Shown: piece by piece, positions 2,765 through 18,312 of the stretch
How positions within the stretch are numbered: position 1 is the stretch's first letter
Layout of the letters: the number at the start of each line of letters is the position of its first letter
Source of the DNA: a virus
Length of the DNA: 20,109 bases
Strand: one strand, 5' to 3'
Virus record (IMG/VR): IMGVR_UViG_3300029286_002537
Span: 1 to 20,109 of that record
Translations under genes and position numbers: made by a program
The notes under the pieces: generated by a model
The model's input: the letters and a program-made list of their open reading frames with translations, nothing else
Databases searched by the model: none
What the model was told of the DNA's origin: nothing

Positions 2765-3682
2765 ATGAAAAGAATCTTAATAGTCGAGGACACAGCATTA
2801 ATAGTCGTATTGGTTAAGGCAATATCGCAAAAAAACAATAATATCATTTGCGATATTGCAACCAATCTAAATGAAGCGGAGCAATTTATCGGGAAAAACG
2901 TCTATGATTACGTTCTTCTTGATTTATTTTTAGGCGGAGAATGGGGATTAAATATCGTCTCGAAATATAAAAATTTAAAGATAATTATAACAACTGCTAC
3001 CTCTAATCCCTCGCTTGAGAAAGAAATTCGTAGTTATAATAATATTATTGACTACATAATCAAACCTCTTGACTATAGAAAGTTATTGATGGATATAGTA
3101 GAAGAGAAATACGATAACATTCTAATAGAAAGGGATGAAGATATGGACAGAAATTCTAAACAATCGCAGAATGAATCATCATGTGCGGGACATAACAGCT
3201 TCGTTACGAGTATTAATAACTTTCACGAAGAGATGACAAAAAAAGTCAATGAGCTATGTGCCTGTGTTGAGGGTTTACAAAGAATGAAGATTACAAACGG
3301 TACGGAGCACGAATACACATTGCCTGAAGCAATATCTACATTAATGGAAGCGACAGCTGAGACGCGGGCGATACGCAATCTAGAAATAGTACAGAAAAAT
3401 AAACCGGGTTCAAGGTTAAGAGGATTCGCTCGCAGGTGGCTATATCCGCTTATTTCTTTTATTATTGCGTCTGTAGCCATTGGGTATTTAATGGATATAG
3501 TAAATGCTCAGGACGAGTTTAGAAATACCTTTACCGAGGTACGCAAGGAGATAGGCGGGGTTAAGGAAGTCATAGCGGTAGTCGTAGCAAAACAAGCGAT
3601 AGTATTCACATGGAAAGAACAGATTGATAAGAAAGTGGACAACCATTTAATCAACAATGATAAACAGAAAGAATTAAAATAA
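2765..3682 (+). CDS. Response-regulator receiver (REC) domain protein with C-terminal membrane helix
   Basis: Residues 1-115 form a receiver domain with the full phosphorylation site: acidic pair E8-D9, phospho-acceptor D53 in Y-V-L-L-D-L, T76/T77 at the end of strand 4, and K100-P101. Residues 120-220 are a polar, partly helical linker with no DNA-binding domain. A basic patch (R-R-W) leads into a hydrophobic helix at about 227-246, and a helical tail of about 60 residues follows. The layout suggests a cytoplasmic receiver tethered to the membrane by its C-terminus, which is unlike standard response regulators. An in-frame ATG at 3143 (residue 127), with AAAGG about ten bases upstream, could give a separate membrane protein without the receiver. 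The gene ends eight bases before portal. The receiver call is firm; the role, such as host signalling interference or a lysis/holin-like function, is unknown. Confidence 0.85.
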   Translation: MKRILIVEDTALIVVLVKAISQKNNNIICDIATNLNEAEQFIGKNVYDYVLLDLFLGGEWGLNIVSKYKNLKIIITTATSNPSLEKEIRSYNNIIDYIIKPLDYRKLLMDIVEEKYDNILIERDEDMDRNSKQSQNESSCAGHNSFVTSINNFHEEMTKKVNELCACVEGLQRMKITNGTEHEYTLPEAISTLMEATAETRAIRNLEIVQKNKPGSRLRGFARRWLYPLISFIIASVAIGYLMDIVNAQDEFRNTFTEVRKEIGGVKEVIAVVVAKQAIVFTWKEQIDKKVDNHLINNDKQKELK

Positions 3683-5599: not shown

Positions 5600-5829
5600 G
5601 AGATGAAAGGAAATGCACAAGGTGCGGAAGTAAAAGTTCTTTATCAATACATCATATAGTTAATAATACAAAAATGAACAGAAAATTATATGGGAACGAA
5701 AGAGTACAGGATTTGAGCAATTCCTGTTTAGTATGCCAAGGATGCCACGATAAACATTCTTCCTGGGATCAGGATTTAAGGAAAAACTTAATTAAAAAAT
5801 GGAAAATTGAGATTAGCAGTCAGGGATAA
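5539..5829 (+). CDS. HNH endonuclease domain, no standard start codon
   Basis: The frame is open from 5539 (after TAA 5536-5538) to TAA 5827-5829 and encodes an HNH nuclease. It shows R-E-E-I-W-I-R-D, a C-x-x-C pair (C26, C29 counting from 5539), the H-H-I-V core (H38-H39), D-L-S-N, and a second C-x-x-C followed at once by His (C-Q-G-C-H). HNH proteins near portal and terminase genes are common and either assist packaging or are homing nucleases. There is no ATG, GTG, TTG or CTG before the core motif, so it needs a -1 frameshift from the upstream ORF, an unusual ATT/ATC start at 5539 or 5542 (GGGGG lies at 5529-5533), or it is a frameshift mutant. The last 23 bases overlap the next gene. Confidence 0.82.
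   Translation: MISTVKKETFSREAREEIWIRDERKCTRCGSKSSLSIHHIVNNTKMNRKLYGNERVQDLSNSCLVCQGCHDKHSSWDQDLRKNLIKKWKIEISSQG
5554..5588 (+). promoter_or_regulatory. Candidate -1 programmed ribosomal frameshift site
   Basis: The heptamer A-AAA-AAG (5554-5560) is read in the zero frame as TTA AAA AAG, the same slippery sequence and phase as in E. coli dnaX. Five bases later an 8-bp stem (5566-5573 with 5581-5588, one G-U pair) closes a 7-base loop. Slipping back one base continues with GAA ACA TTT, which is the HNH frame. Slippery site, spacing, hairpin and a downstream domain with no start codon all agree. Confidence 0.6.
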
Positions 5830-8800
5830 AGTTGAAACGCCAAGAGGTTTCGGCGAAATAAAAGAAACCGCGGATACTATAGCTCTCGTTCAGTTAGGAG
5901 ACGAAGAGAAAGTTTTCTATTTAACTGATTTAAAACCAGTTTCCGAACTTGAATATGTTATGAAGTCACTTGATAACTTAGGAATAGAGCTTGAGGGAAA
6001 AAGAACTCAAAATACAGAGTTAGCCAAATCTTTTTTTGAAAGGATTGAGAAATCATTAGGCGATGAAGAAGAGATTAAAAAGCTCAAAACATCTTTTTAT
6101 AAGAAGGAAACACCTAAAGCATCAGTCCCGCAAACTCCGAGTGCAGTAACAACCCCTAAAAGTCCGGGCGAGATAGAAGTAAACAAGGTAAAGATATCGC
6201 CAAACAAACCACCGGTAGTATCCACAAGTATTATTCCTCCGGGCAGTAAACCGCCAGTTGCTCCAACAGTAACTAAAGAGCCAACGGGGACACCAGCCCC
6301 TCAACCGCCGACGGGGACTATTTCTATAAATAAACCACAAAAAACCGAGCCAATCAATAAACCCGAAGCAAGTCCTTATGGACTCAAGCCATTTCAGGTG
6401 CCAAAAACAGGGAATAGCGATATTAAGGATTTTGATAAAGAGGCATTTGATATGACAAAAAATGTGCCGGATAAACCCGTTAGTAAACCCGGCGCCTTGA
6501 GAAAGATATGGAATAACCTCAAGGGTTCAGGTTCGGAAGATGTAAAGAAGAAACCGGTAAATAATAATGTATTGGATTTAGACACTGGGAAAGTAAGTCG
6601 TCTTGACCAATCGAGGGAAGTACCTTCTACAGCTCACACACTAACTCATATTTCCTTAAACCAAAATGCAAGGTCAGACGATGAGAAATTAAACTATCAC
6701 TATAAGATAGGAAACAAGGCTAATGCTAAAGTTAGTACATATCCTCTTGACGCAAAAGGTAAACCGACATTCGATAAACACCCTGCTATGCAAGGCAAAA
6801 CATTCCTTCCCGGAGAGAAAATAAAACATCAGGGCAAACCATATACAGTGCATTCTCATATTAATCCAATGCCTGATGCAAATGGACAGGTAGATTACAA
6901 TAAAATGTTAATACAAGACGAAAACGGGAATAAATTTTCGGTTAATAGGGCAAATGTTGAGCATATAGGCACAGATTTTAGCACAGCAAAACAAGTACAA
7001 CTTGAAGACGGCACAAAGAAATATCATCATCAATTAAAAAAAGGCGATAAGATTGTACATAAAGGTACCGCACACGAAGTAGTCGGACCTGGCGATAAAG
7101 GATATTTAACCGAAAGCGATAAGGGAGAGTTGCACTATACCTTCGCTAAAGATTATGATAAGAACTTCAAGCATAACGAATATGACAGAAACAAAAAAGC
7201 GGTAAAAGATGATATTGTAGAATTTGAGCATTTAGGTACAAAGAAACAACGCAGAGTAACAAACGACCACCCTGATGGCGCCATAGTACAGATTAATAAA
7301 TCAGACGATCCAATACTCGTTCCTCACGGACAATACAGCTTTACAGGGAAAAGAGGCTTTATGGAACACCCTGATTTAAAAGACAAGAAAAAAGGTAAAG
7401 AGATTGATACGAGTCAGGGACCAATGCCGGCAGAGAGCATTAGCGAAAAAATGGCAGCCTCGGATGAATTTAAAACAGGCAATACGCTTGATAAGTTCAC
7501 AGGAGCCGATAAGAAATCTCATAGGAAACAACAGATTAATGATAATCATTTTGTCCATTCTTTAGGTATGAAAGGCGAGGATGGCGAGGTAAAAATCCAC
7601 AGTGATAAGAACGGTTCAATATCTCATATAGAGAATCCGTTTATCAAAATACATGGAGAACTGCATAAAATCTTAGGTGTTAGCCCGGAAAAAGGCACAA
7701 TAACAATGGTACCTTATAAAAAGGGTAAAACTCCCGCAGTAAACGAGAAAACAGGGATGCACAAAGGTCAAGAGACATATAACCTTACCGACTTGAGGGA
7801 AAGTCAAAATATGCAACCGATTATAAAAGAAAACGTGCAAAAAACCGGGGAAGGGAACTTAAAAGGCAAACTCTTGAGTGATGTTGCTAAGGCACATAAA
7901 GACAGCGGAGTAACAGACTCTAATGATATAGGTAATGAAACAAATGCTACGGCTAATAACCATATAGCATTATCAAAGAAATTACTTGAAGGCGATGAAG
8001 CTATTTTGAAGAAGCATCAGGATAGTAAAAACAAAATAACACGCGGCGATAATCTTTTCGAAAGGGACGATTACGAGCCGTCGAGCCTTAATAAAAACAA
8101 GAAATACACGGATATCTTGAAAGAAGAATTAGGCGATGACTGGAAGAATCAAGTTAGTGGTAAAGTCAAGGAAAATATAGCCCATGAAGAGGGAACCAAA
8201 AAAATTGAAGAAAATAATGCTAAGAATGCTAAAAGCCTTGCGGACAGATACCAAAAACAAAACACGAACCAACTATCCGAAAAATCTGCTAATTACGTAG
8301 AATATACTAAGAAAAACAAGCCCCTTGAAATGCACTTGGGCAAAGAGGGCAAAGCTGCCGCTTCGTGGTCTAAACACCATAATCTACCATTTAATTTTAC
8401 TGTAGTGGACGCTTCCGATCTAACAGCTTCCCATCGTCCAAAGTTTGACGAAAAAGGGGTGCCCAAAATGCAAGAACCTTACGAATGGAATAAAGACTAT
8501 CCCCCCGAGATGCAGAATAGAAACTATCATGGAAAGGACGAGAAGGCTTATGCCGACAGAAAAATAATAGAAGAGAGAGTAAAAGATTTCAGACCGAGTA
8601 TGGTTATTAATGGAACGGAAGATGCTTCAACTGGGGCTCCTTTTGTTGATCCTCACGGCAGAGCAATCAATAATAGTCGTGTATTAGCTTCGATGCTTTT
8701 GCCGCAGGAAAAAGTAGAAGAAATGAGAACCGAGCTGCTAAAACAGTTACCCCAGTATTACGATAACCCGGAGAACTTAAAAAAAGCTGAAGATATAGTT

Positions 8801-9682
8801 AAAGTTCCAATACTTGTTAGGAGAACCAAACAGGCATATCACGAGAATCCGGATATGTATAATGCGCTCGCGGGAGACTTTAACAAAAGCAGTCTAACTA
8901 ATGAGAGCGCAAAGGAAAAAGCAAGCGGTATAGTAAATAGTGCAGGGCAGAAAGCAACAAACGAAGCATTCAATATCATAGGCGCGACTCCGATCAATAC
9001 AAACATGGCTGCCGAAAAGGTTGCCCTACTCAAAAAATGGTCGGAGAAAAACAACCCTAAAGATGTGACAACTCATTATGAGGGTGGGAAACTAACAGAC
9101 GAAGCTGTGGGCTTCTGGAAAAAATTTATGGCACATTCATATTTTAGAGACGAAAAAGCATCGGACACAATAAAAACACTTGGAGAAGAAGGTAAAAATA
9201 TAATGTCGAAAATTGGGAATTTGCACCAGCATCTTAATCCTTTAAAAACCTCACTAAGTGGAGATTTACATGACGATATAGTAAAATATCTTGCAGATAA
9301 AGCGTCCGAGAAAAAAAACCTGCCAGGTCAGCAAAATTTTGTACATAAAGAGACAAATGTATCGAAGGCTCTCGACAAGATATTCTTTGACGACTCAATA
9401 TCAAATAACGACTTAGACGAGCATTTAAAGAAATATGCCGATAGGATGAGGGGCTACGACGATACTAAAAACCAAGCTTCTATCTTTGCAACCAACACGC
9501 CAGAACAAGAGAAAGAATTAGTAATGGGGAAAATGTTAAGCGAGATAAAGAAGGAAGTTGCTGACGAGGAATCAAGGCAAAAAATTGAAGCAAGAAAACT
9601 AAAGAAATCCTTCTTTCATATTGGTCAATATAAACTTGAATATCCGGAAAAACCAAAAATCATCTTATTAAAGGCTAAATGA
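5807..9682 (+). CDS. Giant (1291 aa) polyvalent-type protein with SH3-like barrels and a DdrB-type ParB domain
   Basis: The TTG start at 5807 is the only one that keeps the first domain; the frame is closed by TAA just upstream and the first ATG is at 5960. Residues 3-45 look like a small SH3/KOW-like barrel. Residues 105-200 are a Pro/Lys/Thr-rich linker. Three more barrel-like segments follow at about 330-387, 408-450 and 465-514. Residues about 863-1050 resemble the DdrB-like ParB domain: V-D-A-S-D-L-T-A-S-H-R-P, Y-P-P-E-M-Q-N-R, G-A-P-F-V-D-P-H-G-R and I-N-N-S-R-V-L-A. DdrB is a phage P1 defence (Dar) protein packaged in the head, and this domain recurs in polyvalent proteins injected with DNA. 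A 22-residue tail follows the last K-S-F-F at 1267-1270. Packaging and ejection are inference. Its TGA overlaps the next ATG by four bases. Confidence 0.8.
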   Translation: MRLAVRDKVETPRGFGEIKETADTIALVQLGDEEKVFYLTDLKPVSELEYVMKSLDNLGIELEGKRTQNTELAKSFFERIEKSLGDEEEIKKLKTSFYKKETPKASVPQTPSAVTTPKSPGEIEVNKVKISPNKPPVVSTSIIPPGSKPPVAPTVTKEPTGTPAPQPPTGTISINKPQKTEPINKPEASPYGLKPFQVPKTGNSDIKDFDKEAFDMTKNVPDKPVSKPGALRKIWNNLKGSGSEDVKKKPVNNNVLDLDTGKVSRLDQSREVPSTAHTLTHISLNQNARSDDEKLNYHYKIGNKANAKVSTYPLDAKGKPTFDKHPAMQGKTFLPGEKIKHQGKPYTVHSHINPMPDANGQVDYNKMLIQDENGNKFSVNRANVEHIGTDFSTAKQVQLEDGTKKYHHQLKKGDKIVHKGTAHEVVGPGDKGYLTESDKGELHYTFAKDYDKNFKHNEYDRNKKAVKDDIVEFEHLGTKKQRRVTNDHPDGAIVQINKSDDPILVPHGQYSFTGKRGFMEHPDLKDKKKGKEIDTSQGPMPAESISEKMAASDEFKTGNTLDKFTGADKKSHRKQQINDNHFVHSLGMKGEDGEVKIHSDKNGSISHIENPFIKIHGELHKILGVSPEKGTITMVPYKKGKTPAVNEKTGMHKGQETYNLTDLRESQNMQPIIKENVQKTGEGNLKGKLLSDVAKAHKDSGVTDSNDIGNETNATANNHIALSKKLLEGDEAILKKHQDSKNKITRGDNLFERDDYEPSSLNKNKKYTDILKEELGDDWKNQVSGKVKENIAHEEGTKKIEENNAKNAKSLADRYQKQNTNQLSEKSANYVEYTKKNKPLEMHLGKEGKAAASWSKHHNLPFNFTVVDASDLTASHRPKFDEKGVPKMQEPYEWNKDYPPEMQNRNYHGKDEKAYADRKIIEERVKDFRPSMVINGTEDASTGAPFVDPHGRAINNSRVLASMLLPQEKVEEMRTELLKQLPQYYDNPENLKKAEDIVKVPILVRRTKQAYHENPDMYNALAGDFNKSSLTNESAKEKASGIVNSAGQKATNEAFNIIGATPINTNMAAEKVALLKKWSEKNNPKDVTTHYEGGKLTDEAVGFWKKFMAHSYFRDEKASDTIKTLGEEGKNIMSKIGNLHQHLNPLKTSLSGDLHDDIVKYLADKASEKKNLPGQQNFVHKETNVSKALDKIFFDDSISNNDLDEHLKKYADRMRGYDDTKNQASIFATNTPEQEKELVMGKMLSEIKKEVADEESRQKIEARKLKKSFFHIGQYKLEYPEKPKIILLKAK

Positions 9683-10746
9683 AGACACTGAAATTAATCA
9701 AGAGTTATTATAGCGATGAAGCGGCTAAGGAGTTTCAGGCAAAAAAAGTTAATAAACTATCAAAGACTCTTGAAAAAACTATTAACCTTGGCAAACCAGC
9801 CGCCCAGAGTAAATTATTCTCGCATCCCGCTGATGAATTATACGAGAAATATCCAAATCTTTTTAAACAGGCTATAAAGCCGAAGCACAAGACTTCATTC
9901 GCGTTATTATTTAGTACATTAGGCAGAAAAGATTTAAATGGCATGGAAAATCCGGATGCTTTACACAAGGAAATGCTTGAGGTCGGCGGCGGTGAAGGAG
10001 CGCCCTTCCTGCAAAAAGCGGATGGTTTACACCGGTTTCAAACAAAAGCATATAAACACCCCGCGGTAGAGTCTCAAGGCATTGTTTTGCCCTCGGATCA
10101 TAATATAAACGAATATAGCGATAGGGCTGATAAAAATAAAAACTGGCAAGACAAATACAGCACATTAGGAAAATCAATCAGTGATGAAGATAATGAAGAT
10201 ATGATTGCATCTATAGCTGTAATGACAGGCGGAGAGATACTTATCGGTAAGCGCATAGATTGCGGTCTCTATACTCTTCCAGGAGGTCACGCGAAACAAG
10301 GCGAAAATATTATCGAAGCCGCCTTGAGAGAATTGCGAGAGGAAACAGGAATAAAAGCTAGACAGGAAGATTTAGTCTATCTTGGGCACGAGAGAGTAAC
10401 TCCGAGAGAAGGCGGTAAAATCACAGTACACTCATTCCTCTTGAACGAAAAAGAGAAAACCAATACTTCGCATGATCCTGACGAAGAAGTTGATAGATGG
10501 GAATGGATTGACGTAAAAAACGGATTACCAAAGCATATACTTAACAACTTACATGCAAAGAAGAATATAACACTTCGCATGTTGGATTTACAGCCATTTG
10601 AAGATGAGATAAAAAAGAGCTTTTTCAACCCCCTTGAGCTTACAGGCGATATGGAAGAATTTGATTTACCTTCAGCAAGCGAAGGTTTAACAGAAGCATT
10701 TAATAAGATAAAGAAAATTTTCGATAAACTGAAAACAGCGGTATAA
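9679..10746 (+). CDS. Nudix hydrolase-domain protein in the head module
   Basis: The ATG overlaps the previous stop (ATGA), so translation is coupled. The first 170 residues are basic and lack a recognised fold. A Nudix domain follows at about 174-300, with a perfect box (G-x5-E-x7-REUxEExGU) from G203 to I225, including E209, R217-E218 and E221-E222 for metal binding and catalysis. Nudix enzymes cleave nucleoside diphosphates linked to another group, such as dNTPs, ADP-ribose, NAD or capped RNA; the substrate cannot be read here. After the domain comes E-I-K-K-S-F-F at 310-316 and a 40-residue acidic tail. A Nudix fused to flanking segments that share a motif with its giant neighbours suggests a virion-packaged enzyme acting early in infection, which is inference. 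Confidence 0.88.
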   Translation: MKTLKLIKSYYSDEAAKEFQAKKVNKLSKTLEKTINLGKPAAQSKLFSHPADELYEKYPNLFKQAIKPKHKTSFALLFSTLGRKDLNGMENPDALHKEMLEVGGGEGAPFLQKADGLHRFQTKAYKHPAVESQGIVLPSDHNINEYSDRADKNKNWQDKYSTLGKSISDEDNEDMIASIAVMTGGEILIGKRIDCGLYTLPGGHAKQGENIIEAALRELREETGIKARQEDLVYLGHERVTPREGGKITVHSFLLNEKEKTNTSHDPDEEVDRWEWIDVKNGLPKHILNNLHAKKNITLRMLDLQPFEDEIKKSFFNPLELTGDMEEFDLPSASEGLTEAFNKIKKIFDKLKTAV

Positions 10747-10747
10747 A

Positions 10748-13700
10748 ATGAAAACATTAACAGAACTATTTAAGTCGGTAGAAGGCGAAGCCGGCGGCAA
10801 TGAAGTTGACTTAATGAAAAAGTTCGGAGACTTACATCATTCCGTTAAAAGCGAATACTCCGCACTCTACAAAAAGATGAGTAATCAAGGCATGGATAAA
10901 CTACCGCCTGAACATCAAGCGAAGATTAAAAAGGTCAATGAATACCTTCAGGGAAAAGCCGATTTAGAGTCTGTACATGACCATTACGGGGTAAAGCAAG
11001 AACCAGATGTCGCTCATATAAAGACCGGCACTTATGGTAAAAACTACGTATTTACTCCACAAGTAGAGAAAGGTAAAGTCTCTCTAATTGGCACGAAGAA
11101 AAACGATAAAGAGGGGATTGCCTCGAAAAGAGGAATGGACAGTTTATTCGGAGATATTGGCAGTTCAGTGGAGCACGAGCCAAAAGAAAAAAGATTAGGC
11201 AAGGACTTCGATGCAGTTAAGAAGTATCTAACAAATAACCCTGACGTCCAAAATAATCTGACCTCAAGCAGAACAGGAAAGGCGAACTTAAAAAAAGTAT
11301 ATGGCGAAGAAGGATTAAACGCGCTTATACCTCCCGAAGAAGTAAAGAAAAAACAGGGATTACCGCCGTCTCGCATAGACGAAGCCCAAAAGAAAATCGA
11401 CCAGATGAATAAATTCTCAAACATACAGATGGTTGATCCAAAAATTAATCCTCCTGCGGGAATAAAACCAAAGATTACGATAGAACAATTAAAAGGTGAT
11501 AAACCCGAGGATAGATTGAGTATGAAAAGATGGAGTAAAATAAAAGACTCGACTAAAGAAGTAAGAGACCATTATAGTCATTTAACGAACCTTGCGAGAG
11601 ACGGGACATTAAGAGAAGAACACAAAGAAACACTCGGAAAATATCACGACTACGCTGATGGTAAAATCAGTTCCGAGGATTTACGGAACCACTTAAATAT
11701 AAAAACAGTCTCTAATAAAGAGGAAGAGCAAGCGAAATTAGACAAGCAATATAAAATGCAGAATCTTACCAAACCTGCAAAAGAACTTCATCAAAGGTTA
11801 ATAGGTCTTGAAAAGTATGGGATTGCAGGCGAAGGTAACAGAAATACATTAGCAAAATTCGACGATTATGCCGACGGTAAAATAGGGCATGATGAGTTAA
11901 AACAACACTTGAACGAAACTCACTTCAAGGATAATCCGTTAAATGCAATCCACGAAAGCGAGATAAAAAAATCTTTTTTCTCCTTATCCCCGCTGTCCAA
12001 ATCCGTTGATTCCGGGGGAAGCCAATTAAGTATATTTGAACAACCGAAGAAAGCAGCTAAACTTATTTCGAACAAAACCCCGAGTATAGACACGGGCAGT
12101 AAACCCAAACAGATGACAATAATGGATATGCCGGGTATGAAAAGGGCGGAAAATATGGCAATATTGCATCCTGATATAAAGAGTCGCCATAAGGCATTAA
12201 CTTCGAAGGTAAAGAGCGGGGAACCCCTTGAAAAACACGAGCAAGAGTCCCTTGATAACATAAACGGTTATCTTGACGGCAATGGTAAGATAACAAAGCA
12301 TTCGGACCTTAAAAAACATTTCGGTATTCAAGACTCCGCAGCCGACAGTAACAAATTAGCTGCTGAGATTAAAGACGGTAAATATCATTACAAAGGCGGT
12401 AGTACAGACTTATTCGGTCAGGAACATATGGGTAAAATGCTTGCGCCTTATGTTACACACAGAGAGTTCCTTGACAATCCTAAACCAGAGCACAAAGAAC
12501 TTGCAGACCAAATAAAGGAAATGCACAATGGAGACGAAACTGCAATACGAGAACATTTCAATAATACGATTGGCAGATATAAACATCATACCGAAAAACC
12601 TAATGGACTACCGGATGAGCGACATACACTTATGAATCATGAAAAGTTCAAAGATTCTCCGGAACATGGGTTAGTTGACGGTTTAGAGGAAAAGCACAGG
12701 AGAGAAATGGATGAGTTAGGTACAGGTGATAAATTCGCGGATGCGGTTATTAACTCGGACAGTACTTACTTGAAACCGGGCGAACATGATCCTGGTAAAC
12801 CTACAGTATCGAATGGACTCTTGAGCTATTTAAGAAAATACAAAGCCGACCACATGAATCCCGAGGAAAAAGCAAATAGACAAAAAAGGACATGGTCTAT
12901 GTTCAAGGATAACAGTTGGGATAAGGATAATCTTAAACGATTTTACGAATTTCCGACAACATCTAACAGACAAGAAGCAAGTACAGAGGTATCTGACAAC
13001 GAAAAAACATATTCAAGTAAAGCACAAAAACAACTATTTGATAATAGGAAAAAATATATCGACAATAAAATAAGCCGTCCGCTTTATGAGTCAAAGCGTG
13101 ACTACATAAAAACGAAAGCAAGTGGTGAAGCCACCGAAGAACAAGAACAATTAAAGCATAGAAAAGACCCTATTAAACATAGAGACTATGATACAGAAGT
13201 AAAGGGGAATTATAAACAAGGGGATACTATCAATTACGCGGGACAAAATCACCAAATTGATAATGTTACGGGCAATATAGCGTTTGCGACGGGTGATGAC
13301 AGCAGACAGCGTCGGATAAAACTTGCCGATATTGAGAACCTAAAACACGAAGATTATACACCTGATATTCACAGCACAGCGTTTAAGAAGTTACTTCATG
13401 GCGGCACGGAAGAGAAGGATCTCGATAAATACTTAACCGAACCGAAAGCCTCGCTTGTAAAGCACCTTGAAAGTCTTGGATTTAATGAAGAAGAAAGACA
13501 GAAAATCCACAATTACTTAAACGGGACTAAACCTAACGAATTTAGACACGAAAAAGGGCAGAAAGCTAAAAAAAGACTTACTGCCAAAGACGAAGCAGAT
13601 ACATCTGAGGCTAAAAACCAAGCCATAAAAGACTCGCTTAGGGTTGATGAAGGGACACTCGGTTCAGGCAATACCAACGATGACGACGAGGAAAGAAATA

Positions 13701-14719
13701 CGCTTTCGTTAGATGAGTTAGATGCTATAAATAACTCAGACGACCCGAATATACTTAAAGAGAAAGATATTCTCGATATGTTAGGCAAACACGATACAGA
13801 CCGGTCCAAAGAAGTTCACGCTAATGCCGTTAATGAACACAATAAGAACCGTAAAGAGTACGAAGAGGTAATACAAAATCACGCAGACCACCTCAATAAG
13901 GTATTCCACCCTCATGCGAATAAAGACTATAAAAACCAAATGGAGGAAGCTACGAATAAACTGAATAGTTTACCAGAACATTTAAGAAACAAATTCCAGC
14001 ATATTTACGACGATATTCATCCAATGAAAACAATTTCAGAGAAAACTGTGCTCGACCATTTAGACCAAGGTGATACAAACGCACTAACCCCTGAGCATAT
14101 AGCTAAAAGGATAGGTATTAAACTTGATCCGCCGGAAAAGAAGAAAGGTAAAGAGACTCTAAATGCACATGCTGAAAAAGAGATTATGAATCATTTAATG
14201 TCTTTATATGGTAAAGGAATTGCGGTATTAGGTCGGGATAAGACAGGTAAAGCCAGAGCTTCTTTAAGTTCAAATGTTTTACGAGAGGCTCTCAAAAAAT
14301 CATTTGGCGTACTTACACAGACCGGTGATTATATTAAGGGCAAACTTAAAAATATTATGAGCCTTAAACTAATTAAAGCACAAGAAATGACATTCCAGAA
14401 AGAAATCGAGATGCTCGTGAAGTCTTTCGGACCGAGAGACCTCTGGGATGAAGTAGATAGCACAAGAGCGCGAGCGCGGAGAGAACTCAACCAAATCCTC
14501 GAACTTTCGGAAGAAAAAGTAGAAGATTCAGCTTATACTAAGATTATAAAGTCATTTGAAGTTGACACATATATATTCGGAGAGCTTCTTTTACAGAAAG
14601 ACCGCATAATGAAAAGCGCAGAATTTGCGGAATATGAAAAAATACTACCGGAGCCGGCTTTATCATTTGATGATGACGGAAAACCAATGCTTGTGTATAT
14701 TGACCCTTTGGAAACTTAA
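10748..14719 (+). CDS. Giant (1323 aa) repeat protein, probable internal head or ejected protein
   Basis: It begins one base after the previous stop and has no catalytic domain I can recognise. It is very rich in Lys, Asp, Glu, His and Asn. Four copies of a helical module lie at about 25-85, 263-320, 338-392 and 470-530, each with a hydrophobic helix, E-H or similar, then Y-x-D/x-G-K and H-L or H-F-G. Residues 821-867 resemble the SH3-like barrels of the 1291-residue protein. Residues 975-1010 are very acidic. The C-terminal 150 residues are helical with three K-S-F motifs (1184-1186, 1225-1227, 1268-1270); another K-S-F-F at 408-411 ends the third module and looks like an old fusion joint. 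Position between portal and capsid genes, composition and motifs point to a capsid-internal or ejected protein. That role is inference. Confidence 0.75.
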   Translation: MKTLTELFKSVEGEAGGNEVDLMKKFGDLHHSVKSEYSALYKKMSNQGMDKLPPEHQAKIKKVNEYLQGKADLESVHDHYGVKQEPDVAHIKTGTYGKNYVFTPQVEKGKVSLIGTKKNDKEGIASKRGMDSLFGDIGSSVEHEPKEKRLGKDFDAVKKYLTNNPDVQNNLTSSRTGKANLKKVYGEEGLNALIPPEEVKKKQGLPPSRIDEAQKKIDQMNKFSNIQMVDPKINPPAGIKPKITIEQLKGDKPEDRLSMKRWSKIKDSTKEVRDHYSHLTNLARDGTLREEHKETLGKYHDYADGKISSEDLRNHLNIKTVSNKEEEQAKLDKQYKMQNLTKPAKELHQRLIGLEKYGIAGEGNRNTLAKFDDYADGKIGHDELKQHLNETHFKDNPLNAIHESEIKKSFFSLSPLSKSVDSGGSQLSIFEQPKKAAKLISNKTPSIDTGSKPKQMTIMDMPGMKRAENMAILHPDIKSRHKALTSKVKSGEPLEKHEQESLDNINGYLDGNGKITKHSDLKKHFGIQDSAADSNKLAAEIKDGKYHYKGGSTDLFGQEHMGKMLAPYVTHREFLDNPKPEHKELADQIKEMHNGDETAIREHFNNTIGRYKHHTEKPNGLPDERHTLMNHEKFKDSPEHGLVDGLEEKHRREMDELGTGDKFADAVINSDSTYLKPGEHDPGKPTVSNGLLSYLRKYKADHMNPEEKANRQKRTWSMFKDNSWDKDNLKRFYEFPTTSNRQEASTEVSDNEKTYSSKAQKQLFDNRKKYIDNKISRPLYESKRDYIKTKASGEATEEQEQLKHRKDPIKHRDYDTEVKGNYKQGDTINYAGQNHQIDNVTGNIAFATGDDSRQRRIKLADIENLKHEDYTPDIHSTAFKKLLHGGTEEKDLDKYLTEPKASLVKHLESLGFNEEERQKIHNYLNGTKPNEFRHEKGQKAKKRLTAKDEADTSEAKNQAIKDSLRVDEGTLGSGNTNDDDEERNTLSLDELDAINNSDDPNILKEKDILDMLGKHDTDRSKEVHANAVNEHNKNRKEYEEVIQNHADHLNKVFHPHANKDYKNQMEEATNKLNSLPEHLRNKFQHIYDDIHPMKTISEKTVLDHLDQGDTNALTPEHIAKRIGIKLDPPEKKKGKETLNAHAEKEIMNHLMSLYGKGIAVLGRDKTGKARASLSSNVLREALKKSFGVLTQTGDYIKGKLKNIMSLKLIKAQEMTFQKEIEMLVKSFGPRDLWDEVDSTRARARRELNQILELSEEKVEDSAYTKIIKSFEVDTYIFGELLLQKDRIMKSAEFAEYEKILPEPALSFDDDGKPMLVYIDPLET
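10820..12337 (+). repeat. Four-copy protein repeat within the 1323-residue protein
   Basis: The span encodes four diverged copies of a 55-60 residue helical module at residues about 25-85, 263-320, 338-392 and 470-530. Copies 2 and 3 are closest and share D-Y-A-D-G-K-I and a following L-x-x-H-L. Copies 1 and 4 keep Y-L-Q-G-K and Y-L-D-G-N-G-K-I with a terminal H-Y-G or H-F-G. The similarity is at protein level; the DNA has diverged, so this is an old duplication. Confidence 0.65.
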
Positions 14720-14730
14720 TTAACAAAACA

Positions 14731-15105
14731 ATGACAAAAATACTTAAAATTCAGCAACCGAAAAGAATGGATTACGAAGAACTTGCAAAATCATTTGCTA
14801 CAGAAGACCGAATGAGTTTCCAGATGGGAAAGAACACTGATGAAGTCATAGGTCGAATAAACAAGTTTACGTCTTTCATTAAGGAACTTAATAACGAAGA
14901 ACTCTTGAAAAAGGGGAAACAGTTACAAACGGCTATTAAAGCAATTAACACCGGCATATCCAATCAGATGAAATCGTTTTTAGCCGCAAAGCAACCGCAT
15001 AAACTATTCAGTGACCCCTTGATGAGCAGGGTAGTAATGGCAAAAGGGTTACTGTCAGTCCAGCTTGAAGAAATAACTAACGAATTAGCGAGCCGTGGAG
15101 TATAA
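14731..15105 (+). CDS. Small helical head-module protein, unknown, 124 residues
   Basis: The ATG at 14731 follows an A-rich leader without SD, 11 bases after the giant gene. The protein is predicted helical, with E-L-A-K-S-F at 17-22 (the motif shared by its neighbours), a long helix at about 35-75 and a final amphipathic helix. No membrane segment or enzyme motif is visible and I recognise no family. Its stop lies inside the start of the next gene (11-base overlap). Placement before the protease suggests a minor head or scaffold-associated part. Confidence 0.7.
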   Translation: MTKILKIQQPKRMDYEELAKSFATEDRMSFQMGKNTDEVIGRINKFTSFIKELNNEELLKKGKQLQTAIKAINTGISNQMKSFLAAKQPHKLFSDPLMSRVVMAKGLLSVQLEEITNELASRGV

Positions 15106-15445: not shown

Positions 15446-16834
15446 ATGCCAGAATCTTTTTCATTTTATGCTCCAATAATAGACTTTGAGAAAAGCCATG
15501 CACATAATCCGGCGGCTGGCGTAGTTGACGTTAAACTTAGTTGTTTAATCTCAAGCGATAGGGAAGATTTTGATAAAGACGTTATAAGTCAAGACGGTTT
15601 AATCTTCGATTTATGGAAGCAAGGTTACGGCAGGGTAAAATACGAGCATAATAAAGATCCTAAATATTTTATAGGGTATCCAGTATCCGTTATGAGAAAA
15701 GGACATTCAACACATGCAGAAGCCCGAATCTTCGCTAAACAGGGTACACCACAATACGAAATAGCCACTCAATGTATCGGCGATCTTGAAAACATGAAAG
15801 CATTCAACGAAGCACATCCGGAAAGTCCTAAAAGGATGGGAATAAGCGTCGAGGGTGGCATTTTAGCCAGAAAAGGAAAACACGTATCAAGTTCGGTAAT
15901 AACCAACATAGTAATCACAGCCAACCCCCGGAATCCGGATACTTATGCCAATTTAGTAAAGTCATTCGAGGCTGGAGCATCGGTTAATGGTTGCGATATG
16001 ACAGGCGGCGAATCCGGAAGAAAACAATATCTATCAGGAAGTCACAAAAATCAAACAATAGGAGTAAAATTAATGGGTAAATTCAATTCCAAGGAAGAAG
16101 TAGCAAAATACTTCGCCACTCAAGGATATTCCGAAGCTGATGCAAAGGCAAAAGCTGAAGAATGGGAATCCGCGAGAAACAAAACGACAGCAAGAGACAA
16201 AAGTCTTGAAAAGTCGTTTGAAATCATTGACTCAGCAATGGAGAACATATCCGCACTTGTAGAGTCTCTTGAAAAGAATAAAAGTATCGTAGCTCTTGAA
16301 AAGTCCTTCGAAACAAACGTAAATGCGGTATCGAGTCACGAGAATGTTGACGTTGTACCATTTATGAAAGCCATTGGCGGCAGTTCTCTTGAACTACAGA
16401 AGTCAATGACAGCGCAAAATACCGAAATATCCAAAATGTTCGGTATAACCCTCGGTATGATAAAGGCAAGCATGGAATTAACAAAGTCCGTATCAGAGGA
16501 TCTCTCGAAAGTCACAGAATATGCCGAAACCCTCATCGAGGAAAACGAATCATTAAAAAAGTCCCTTGAAAACATTGATACCGGGATAATTACAGACGGT
16601 ACCAAATTAGCAGCGGCTAAACTTGCAGGGAAACAGCCGGGCGAAGGTGATGCACCGCCAGCACTCAGTAAAAAGCAAGCAAAGAACTATCTGAGAAAAA
16701 GTTTCGAAGACGCCGGTGACGATGCAACAAAAAGACAGTACTACAGCACGGCTTTAACAATGGTCGAAACTCACGGTATTGAAACACTTAATAAGTCATT
16801 AATTGACGAAATCACCGATTCAATCAAGAAATAA
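15446..16834 (+). CDS. Prohead serine protease with C-terminal scaffold domain
   Basis: Residues 20-170 match the HK97-type prohead protease fold: the catalytic His in V-K-Y-E-H-N-K-D-P (H68), the catalytic Ser in M-G-I-S-V-E-G-G (S134), and a terminal strand with V-I-T-A-N-P that usually closes the domain. The enzyme matures the shell by cleaving scaffold and capsid N-termini, then itself. From about 210 on the protein is helical, charged and coiled-coil-like, as expected of a scaffold, with K-S-F-E at 172-175, 256-259, 286-289 and 418-421. Residues 172-198 align without gaps with capsid residues 29-55. An in-frame ATG at 16073 with its own SD probably gives the scaffold alone. The capsid gene follows 56 bases downstream. 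Confidence 0.9.
   Translation: MPESFSFYAPIIDFEKSHAHNPAAGVVDVKLSCLISSDREDFDKDVISQDGLIFDLWKQGYGRVKYEHNKDPKYFIGYPVSVMRKGHSTHAEARIFAKQGTPQYEIATQCIGDLENMKAFNEAHPESPKRMGISVEGGILARKGKHVSSSVITNIVITANPRNPDTYANLVKSFEAGASVNGCDMTGGESGRKQYLSGSHKNQTIGVKLMGKFNSKEEVAKYFATQGYSEADAKAKAEEWESARNKTTARDKSLEKSFEIIDSAMENISALVESLEKNKSIVALEKSFETNVNAVSSHENVDVVPFMKAIGGSSLELQKSMTAQNTEISKMFGITLGMIKASMELTKSVSEDLSKVTEYAETLIEENESLKKSLENIDTGIITDGTKLAAAKLAGKQPGEGDAPPALSKKQAKNYLRKSFEDAGDDATKRQYYSTALTMVETHGIETLNKSLIDEITDSIKK
16060..16075 (+). promoter_or_regulatory. Internal ribosome binding site for a separate scaffold
   Basis: AGGAG at 16060-16064 lies eight bases before ATG 16073, inside the protease-scaffold frame. It is as good an SD as that of the capsid gene (AGGAG 16880-16884), while most genes here have none. 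The ATG falls just after the protease domain and the 27-residue segment shared with the capsid protein. Confidence 0.65.
16073..16834 (+). CDS. Nested in-frame scaffolding protein (253 residues)
   Basis: An in-frame start at residue 210 of the protease gene would yield the scaffold domain alone. Lambda does the same (Nu3 inside C), and several related phages have such nested scaffolds. Evidence: AGGAG at the right distance, the ATG at the domain boundary, and a C-terminal part that is almost entirely helical and charged, as scaffolds are. The product begins M-G-K-F-N-S-K-E-E-V and holds three of the four K-S-F-E motifs of the gene. It would be made in excess over the protease and removed during maturation; the excess is inferred from SD strength. 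Confidence 0.6.
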   Translation: MGKFNSKEEVAKYFATQGYSEADAKAKAEEWESARNKTTARDKSLEKSFEIIDSAMENISALVESLEKNKSIVALEKSFETNVNAVSSHENVDVVPFMKAIGGSSLELQKSMTAQNTEISKMFGITLGMIKASMELTKSVSEDLSKVTEYAETLIEENESLKKSLENIDTGIITDGTKLAAAKLAGKQPGEGDAPPALSKKQAKNYLRKSFEDAGDDATKRQYYSTALTMVETHGIETLNKSLIDEITDSIKK

Positions 16835-16890
16835 GCTATAAAAAGACAAAAAACAAACAAATTTTAAACTAATAATCACAGGAGCAATTA

Positions 16891-18312
16891 ATGGAAGTAT
16901 TAAATCCCGGTTCATTAACCGATCATGATGGACTTAGCAGTTCTGATAGCTTAAGTCTAATCATGGAAATCCAGAAGGCTTTTGAAGCTGGTCATGATTA
17001 CGACATGGCATCATTGACAGGCGGTCAAGCGGGCAGAGTCCAGTCCCTTGAAGGCACATTCAAAGTCATCACTTTCGAGGAAAGAGCAGCGTCATTCTGG
17101 CAGAAATGCCCCAAACAAAAAGTCACCAGTACAGTTCTCGAATGGTCGAGAATCAATGAAGTCGCAGGAATGGTATTCTACCCTGAAGGCGGCGATGTTG
17201 ACGAAACAAACGATGTCATGGACAGAAAGTTCGATATCGTGAAATTCGCGGGCGTAAAAGGTTCGGTAACTTTCGGTGCGAAATCAGTAAAAATGATACA
17301 AGCTGCGGAAATAACAGAAACCAAGAATAAAACAAGATCAATGGTCCGGAGTCTCGACCTTGCTTTATGGAATGCAAACTCTGCAATCAATGCTTATGAA
17401 TTTGACGGAGTAATCACGCAGGTAAAAGCAAACATGAAAAACCCGGCACAAGGTATTCTTGATAAACGCGGTTCGAGAATAACAGATGCCGATATCTTGA
17501 ATGCAACAACTTGCATCAAATCAAACTACGGTTACGGCGAATTAAGACTGTGGATGTCACTCGATGCAGTCAACGGTTACGTACAAGAGAAGATTTTAAA
17601 TAAAATGTACTATACAAACGCCGGTGGTACAAAAGACCTGAGCCCAACAGACCAGGACTTCTCGTCTTTCAGGGTTGCTAATGGTTCGGGTAAAGTTGAA
17701 GAAGATGTATTTATGAGAGCGGAAAGCGCCGTCTTGAACAGAATCTTAACTTCAACATACGCCGCATTCCAAAAGAATCACGTTATTGGTCCGGATGCAC
17801 CAACTGCTGTAATAACGGCAGAAACTTCAGACGGTACTTACTCACTTGCTAACGGCTCGTATAAATACGCAGTTGTACCCGAAAATCAATACGGTGAAGG
17901 TTTAGCATACGAATGCTCAATCACACATTCCGGTGGCAGCAAGATGACAAAACTCGTAATAACCAGAGCAGGAACTGGCGATTTAGCAACGGGATATAAA
18001 GTATATCGTTGCGCCGGTACCTCAACAGACAAAAGGGATTTCTATTTAGTCGAGAGATTCGTATCAGGGGGAGCTACAACAACATGGTACGATAAAAACG
18101 ATCACATCCCGGGAACAACGACTGCTGTAATGATGGAATGGAATGCCGACCAAACATTCGTTGTCTCGCAACTTGCAGATATGATGAAACTGCCTTATGG
18201 AATCCGTTCAGATAAGAAAGAATGGTTACAAAAGGTTTATCTCGTACCGCAGGTATTCAATCCTAACAGATTCTATATATTCGAAAATGTAGGAATGTTA
18301 GCAAATTCGTAA
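16891..18312 (+). CDS. Major capsid protein with inserted Ig/Fn3-like domain
   Basis: The AGGAG at 16880-16884 sets the ATG, six bases downstream. The product (473 residues) has the size and layout of an HK97-fold capsid protein: an N-terminal arm, an alpha/beta body at about 60-295, and a C-terminal body strand and helix at about 415-473. Residues about 301-410 form a separate beta-rich insertion with G-S-Y-K-Y-A-V-V and T-G-Y-K-V-Y-R, typical of Ig- or Fn3-like modules that decorate capsids. The N-terminus holds K-A-F-E-A-G (29-34) and T-G-G-Q-A-G-R (43-49), shared with the protease, and may be a processed delta domain. It lies next to the protease-scaffold gene, the classic order. A hairpin just downstream may trim or stabilise its mRNA. 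Confidence 0.88.
   Translation: MEVLNPGSLTDHDGLSSSDSLSLIMEIQKAFEAGHDYDMASLTGGQAGRVQSLEGTFKVITFEERAASFWQKCPKQKVTSTVLEWSRINEVAGMVFYPEGGDVDETNDVMDRKFDIVKFAGVKGSVTFGAKSVKMIQAAEITETKNKTRSMVRSLDLALWNANSAINAYEFDGVITQVKANMKNPAQGILDKRGSRITDADILNATTCIKSNYGYGELRLWMSLDAVNGYVQEKILNKMYYTNAGGTKDLSPTDQDFSSFRVANGSGKVEEDVFMRAESAVLNRILTSTYAAFQKNHVIGPDAPTAVITAETSDGTYSLANGSYKYAVVPENQYGEGLAYECSITHSGGSKMTKLVITRAGTGDLATGYKVYRCAGTSTDKRDFYLVERFVSGGATTTWYDKNDHIPGTTTAVMMEWNADQTFVVSQLADMMKLPYGIRSDKKEWLQKVYLVPQVFNPNRFYIFENVGMLANS

Follow-up and report, generated by a model that had tools for sequence, protein, structure and literature searches.

A described counterpart of the locus analysed here is that of SPO1 (Herelleviridae), in which the genes for the protease gp3.2 and the capsid protein gp6.1 stand in the same order, protease before capsid, and the capsid protein belongs to the same family and has the same fold. 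For most phages, it is not settled how a limited number of head protease copies comes to be enclosed in the prohead. In SPN3US gp245 and other prohead proteases, a C-terminal propeptide is removed by self-cleavage and has been proposed to be a prohead-targeting element (PMC7411985, PMC10052503). Short capsid targeting sequences also direct proteins into the head, as in the internal proteins of T4 and DarB of P1 (PMC7411985, PMC9024508), and in T4 these peptides are subsequently removed by the protease (PMC7411985). In HK97, the capsid protein gp5 is cut at K103/S104 and its N-arm rebinds the capsid protein; in Prohead II, the arm sits where the scaffold had been bound to the capsid protein before (PMC10275583). 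A similar replacement of the scaffold by the N-arm has been suggested for phage D3 (PMC12749128).

The window, as we call the whole stretch of 20,109 nucleotides analysed here (IMG/VR record IMGVR_UViG_3300029286_002537, positions 1 to 20,109), encodes on its plus strand a head maturation protease of 462 aa with a C-terminal scaffold-like fusion (15446..16834; phrog_1028, E=6e-14, and AlphaFold) and a major capsid protein of 473 aa of the SPO1 type (16891..18312; phrog_752, E=8e-58 over residues 20-469). Pfam and NCBIfam returned no family for either protein. Modelled with AlphaFold, the capsid protein shows an HK97-like fold closest to the capsid proteins of SPO1 (9vel, E=5.9e-29, TM 0.67-0.69) and phi812 (5lii, E about 1e-12) in Foldseek comparisons, and the sequence is ~21-30% identical to the capsid proteins of its relatives. 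For the protease, comparison of the AlphaFold model points to an assemblin-like fold, the best matches being herpesvirus assemblins (E=1.5e-4, probability 1.0) at low TM-scores of just 0.3-0.4. Its catalytic domain spans residues 25-172 (15518..15961, plus strand), with pLDDT >90 over nearly the whole domain. H68, S134 (in GISVEG), G137 and K172 are invariant in 30 protease sequences, and this conservation marks S134 and H68 as putative catalytic residues. K172 is the end of the domain; residues 174-203 are disordered in the model of the free protease (pLDDT <50) and are followed by a small helical domain (residues 210-258, 16073..16219, plus strand; AlphaFold) made of helices 216-225 and 230-258, with mean pLDDT of ~86-94 as far as residue 250, falling to 74 for residues 251-260. 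The scaffold-like C-terminal region (residues 250-462, 16193..16831, plus strand) carries seven hxK|S sites.

The first-pass annotation had drawn attention to a 27-residue segment that the protease and the capsid protein share without gaps, closing the catalytic domain in the former and lying in the N-terminal arm of the latter. The match is real in all these respects: 13 of 27 positions are identical and 18 of 27 similar between protease residues 172-198 (15959..16039, plus strand; KSFEAGASVNGCDMTGGESGRKQYLSG), a disordered linker recognized as a copy of the capsid arm from the sequence, the relatives and the AlphaFold model, and capsid residues 29-55 (16975..17055, plus strand; KAFEAGHDYDMASLTGGQAGRVQSLEG), an arm that is marked by invariant columns and would start the mature protein. 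The alignment is in fact slightly longer than first noted, by ~3 residues (capsid 29-58). When all protein pairs of the window are ordered by raw score, its local score of 71 comes third, after long alignments of charged proteins; this score was reached in 6 of 5000 trials in which the whole capsid protein was shuffled and compared with the protease (p ~0.001) and in none of 300 in which the capsid N-terminus alone was shuffled, and the protease-capsid pair has E=6.6e-4 in the genome search. Given that the ~100 protein pairs of the window form the background for the chance estimate, this pair on its own is merely suggestive. That doubt is removed by the recurrence of the two-gene match in relatives.

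We examined 80 IMG/VR loci, fetched with a capsid alignment, and 18 named phages; scans of viral_contigs with the single capsid or protease sequence of the window had returned no relatives, whereas the alignment succeeded. The first-pass annotation had proposed to check whether the segment recurs in other phages of the family. The protease/capsid match does recur, namely, in SPO1, A511, A9, LysYB2, Touem01 and Cumys, and many IMG/VR contigs carry it as well, with identities up to 26/38 and 25/30. The arm pairs read KSMTTGYNHGGTDQFNGQALRRQSLA / KSMTTGYEHGGTDQTDGSALRRQSLA in A9 and AGDPHALDFKAGLSGVPAIRLESLE / AGDPHALDPKSGLTGVPAIRRESLE in the Thermus phage Cumys, whereas in the metagenomic locus L092 (5278-6018 and 6983-8383) protease and capsid arms are identical at 25 of 30 positions (LRKALYAGNAVTDPGVAPGEGFPLRPQSLE / LAKSLSAGSAVTDPGVAPGEGFPLRRQSLE), an own-genome pair among the strongest in the set. 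The two arms of SPO1 share 15 of 25 residues. In many genomes, the best upstream match of the capsid N-terminus is the protease, with no shuffle reaching the score. A profile built from capsid arms alone, with the window excluded, and run against all six-frame ORFs of 55 genomes (E<=0.01) hit 47 capsid proteins and 28 proteases, and its matches were confined to these two genes; thus, among the ORFs of these genomes, no scaffold carries an arm recognized by the profile. The protease copy of the window itself is weak against this family profile (E=1.7), and several metagenomic proteases retain the C-terminal half of the arm alone. Many copies of the arm escaped a strict regular expression, and curated arms checked against the sequences were used instead.

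The distribution of the arm copy has limits. It is unrecognizable in the proteases of the Bacteroides phages DAC19 and SJC03, of the Chryseobacterium phage MA9V-3 and of MT835500, despite their sharing the capsid family, and the copy thus appears to be dispensable in some phages. The protease of MA9V-3 (L005, 10001-11599) is long and has a scaffold-like C-terminus rich in K|S. A rule for tailed phages in general was rejected, since no match of this kind exists in HK97 or T4: the scores of gp4/gp5 and gp21/gp23 were reached in 36 of 1000 and 349 of 1000 shuffles, respectively.

Relatives with known mature capsid proteins show what the segment is in the capsid. The record of Listeria phage A511 annotates a mature peptide from residue 24 (DALK|SFTTGYGITPDTQTDAGALRREFL), that is, a cut at K23|S24. 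In phi812, the capsid chain of 9row, 9rox and 9roz has 439 residues and begins SFQTGYGITPDTQ, compared to 463 residues in the precursor chain (5lii); the mature chain (9row) starts with SFQTGYG and is 24 residues short of the precursor, which places the cut at K24|S25. The largest chain of SPO1 9vel has 445 modelled of 468 residues, and as this number equals residues 24-468, the SPO1 cut is likely to be at K23|A24. In A511, in phi812 and, by this reasoning, in SPO1, residue two of the shared segment is the first of the mature protein, the cut falling at K|S or K|A. The capsid N-terminus is therefore not intact in the virions of A511 and phi812; an intact N-terminus had been named in the first-pass annotation as the result that would speak against its reading. 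The site is conserved between the window capsid and its relatives, so that homology to A511, phi812 and SPO1 predicts a cut at K29|A30, with residues 1-29 (16891..16977, plus strand) as the capsid propeptide. Across 37 capsid proteins just 11 columns are invariant, and K29, G34, S52 and L53 account for four of these. Comparison with these relatives identifies the shared segment as the N-terminal arm that a mature SPO1-type capsid protein begins with.

The proposal that the segment is a common cleavage signal holds for its first residues, hxK|S or hxK|A, and fails for the remainder. The motif [LIVMF]xKS occurs 242 times in the scaffold ORFs located between the protease and capsid genes (22.4 expected, 10.8x) and 210 times in the proteases (24.7 expected, 8.5x), as opposed to 111 times in downstream genes (105.4 expected, 1.05x); the controls [LIVMF]xRS and [LIVMF]xSK are close to expectation in all three sets. 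This enrichment, together with the cuts in A511 and phi812, makes hxK|S the likely cleavage signal. Scaffolds and proteases carry the motif at ~10 times the chance level in places where the downstream part is absent, so that hxK|S or hxK|A alone would serve as the signal, and because most hxKS sites lack the arm, the arm appears unnecessary for cleavage. The downstream TGGxxGRxQxL corresponds instead to the mature capsid arm, which is kept in the virions of the relatives. A reading of the whole segment as purely a cleavage signal was accordingly rejected, given the abundance of hxKS sites without it.

The two copies evolve in step within each genome. Among 55 representatives, own-genome pairs of capsid N-terminus and protease score 66.7 on average, compared to 41.2 for cross pairs (0 of 20000 permutations), and the two incomplete proteases in this set bias the comparison against the result. 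For 37 hand-curated arm pairs, the corresponding values are 70.8 and 36.5; 23 of these pairs have arms of equal length, against 10.7 expected, and own pairs also exceed cross pairs after labels are permuted within capsid clades (p=0 of 5000 to 0.005). An old duplication followed by independent drift would make own and cross pairs equal, and hence does not account for the pattern. Recent duplication or gene conversion of the neighbouring genes, with no common function of the two copies, would fit their adjacency and the absence of gaps; however, identical residues of the curated pairs share the codon in 146 of 383 cases against 166.5 expected, codon identity at shared residues is at or below chance in 23 genomes, and the window itself shows the same codon at 5 of 12 shared residues (5.1 expected) and a nucleotide identity of 0.49 between its two copies. 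In addition, the match recurs across capsid proteins that share just ~25-30% of their residues with that of the window. Lacking any synonymous-site excess, recent tandem duplication or conversion was rejected, and we regard it as very improbable. Still less credible is the view that the two proteins have nothing but the cleavage motif in common, the remaining identities being chance. The p-value of ~0.001 for the window, before correction for the number of pairs, leaves some room for it, but the downstream half (GGxALRxESL) is recurrent in proteases and is found there by the capsid-only profile. The origin had initially been put down to duplication or convergence; neither recent duplication nor plain convergence fits, because synonymous codons are randomized while residues and spacing co-vary genome by genome. 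As own pairs match while the codons at shared residues are random, the residues of both arms are held together by selection and co-evolution at the protein level.

What the protease arm is matched to was approached through partial rank correlations of the distance matrices of protease arm, protease domain, capsid arm and capsid core. The protease arm correlates with the capsid arm (0.47, 0 of 2000 permutations) and hardly with the catalytic domain of the same protein (0.07, p=0.23); the capsid arm correlates with the capsid core (0.36, 0 of 2000), which is in part ordinary linkage within a gene, and not with the protease domain (-0.05). The protease arm thus follows the capsid arm and not the catalytic domain next to it, which speaks for a binding site on the capsid protein rather than for a protease exosite. 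If the segment were an extended substrate signal, such an exosite would hold the arm of the protease itself as a pseudosubstrate and keep the enzyme inactive until capsid arms compete for it. This would explain why the arm directly follows an hxK|S site in both proteins and why the capsid cleavage site of the relatives coincides with the start of the arm, but it appears unlikely in view of the hxKS sites without an arm, which number in the hundreds across scaffolds and proteases, the disorder of the arm in the AlphaFold model and the failure of either arm to track the catalytic domain. Co-evolution of two proteins can also run through a third, and the scaffold genes located between the protease and capsid genes would be suitable intermediaries if both arms bound a further head protein, such as scaffold or portal. 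Yet the protease of the window has the scaffold-like region as part of its own chain, the arm persists in the mature capsid after the scaffold is lost, and the capsid arm tracks the capsid core, so that we consider this option equally doubtful. Docking on the capsid shell is also more probable than the related suggestion of a scaffold-binding signal, given that no scaffold ORF carries the arm and that the protease arm tracks the capsid arm.

The sequence comparisons thus make it reasonably probable that the protease arm is a docking mimic of the capsid arm within an autocleavable propeptide, which would place the protease on the shell. The N-arm of HK97 and the propeptide of SPN3US serve as precedents for this reading, and the disorder of the arm in the model of the free protease agrees with it; the relatives without an arm copy, the weak profile score of the window copy and the proteases with half an arm count against it. 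Located directly behind the catalytic domain, in a C-terminal propeptide that could be removed by autocleavage, the mimic of the mature capsid N-arm would probably fill the arm-binding site on the inner face of the capsid lattice, and the protease would enter the prohead as a pseudo-subunit of the capsid. After completion of the shell, the enzyme would cut the scaffold and internal head proteins at hxK|S and hxK|A and would cleave the capsid protein before its arm, at K29|A30. Self-cleavage predicted at K172|S173 (between bases 15961 and 15962), before the arm copy, would free the catalytic domain. More broadly, we give about even weight to the proposition that the head proteases of SPO1-type phages and of related tailed phages achieve their own recruitment by passing for capsid subunits, with an arm copy that selection on the binding site of the shell keeps matched to the capsid arm, that anchors the protease on the lattice and that is released by the same cleavage as the capsid arms.

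The same motif points to further candidate substrates in the window. Three genes of the head cluster (5807..14719, plus strand), encoding a ddrB-ParB-like protein, a NUDIX protein and a protein of 1323 aa, contain KSF/KSFF sites (KSF 7 versus ~0.6 expected), and a small protein of 124 aa (14731..15105, plus strand) has two KSF sites (0.03 expected); the products of all four genes are probable substrates of the protease. Gene by gene (5807-9682, 9679-10746, 10748-14719 and 14731-15105), such sites are well above chance and often lie near protein ends, K1267|SFF of the first head-cluster protein being 24 residues before its end. These proteins resemble internal components of the head that the protease would process, and the hxK|S rule would predict which such proteins are processed in SPO1-type phages. 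The 1291-aa product of 5807-9682 contains a ddrB-ParB domain (PF18763, E=5e-7); DdrB of P1 is a head protein of a defence-against-restriction system (PMC9024508). The 1291-aa protein forms the top mutual local alignment of the window with the other giant head-cluster protein (10748-14719; score 104), and the two are perhaps distant paralogues or share composition. The NUDIX hydrolase gene (9679-10746) is located upstream of the protease, and genes that by eye appear NUDIX-like occupy comparable places in the Bacteroides and Chryseobacterium relatives (L004, 12333-13013; L005, 9287-9994). Elsewhere in the window, a diversity-generating retroelement consists of a variable repeat (181-302), a template repeat (781-902) and a reverse transcriptase (1056-2087), with 13 of 13 differences between the repeats falling at template adenines. 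By eye, the product of 2765-3682 looks like a response-regulator receiver domain with a transmembrane segment behind it.

If the arm copy does recruit the protease, a simple conserved peptide would explain the packaging of the enzyme in SPO1, A511 and staphylococcal Kayvirus-type phages, and the test for protein-level co-evolution used here could uncover docking peptides. Since two copies evolve in step and SPO1 is a classical model phage, the docking idea is easily testable.

Protease propeptides and capsid targeting sequences are already known, whereas we found no description of a capsid-arm copy in a protease that co-evolves with the capsid in the literature searched, which covers few subscription journals. 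SPN3US cleaves after A-x-E, compared to the likely hxK signal in the family of the window, and the hxK|S rule also fits HK97, as the HK97 capsid protein is cut between K103 and S104. The targeting sequences of T4 and P1 are N-terminal, and those of T4 contact the prohead core; by contrast, the element of the window is internal (residues 172-198 of the 462-aa protease, behind the catalytic domain) and reproduces the arm of the mature capsid protein. The resemblance to SPO1 is closer. Its capsid protein is ~26% identical to that of the window, the arm copy likewise follows the catalytic domain of the protease, and K|A stands at the probable mature start of the capsid protein. The two systems differ in that SPO1 has an extra K|S site and a linker between domain and arm, and in that its scaffold-like region is encoded by a separate gene, gp3.3, whereas in the window this region is fused behind the helical domain of the protease.
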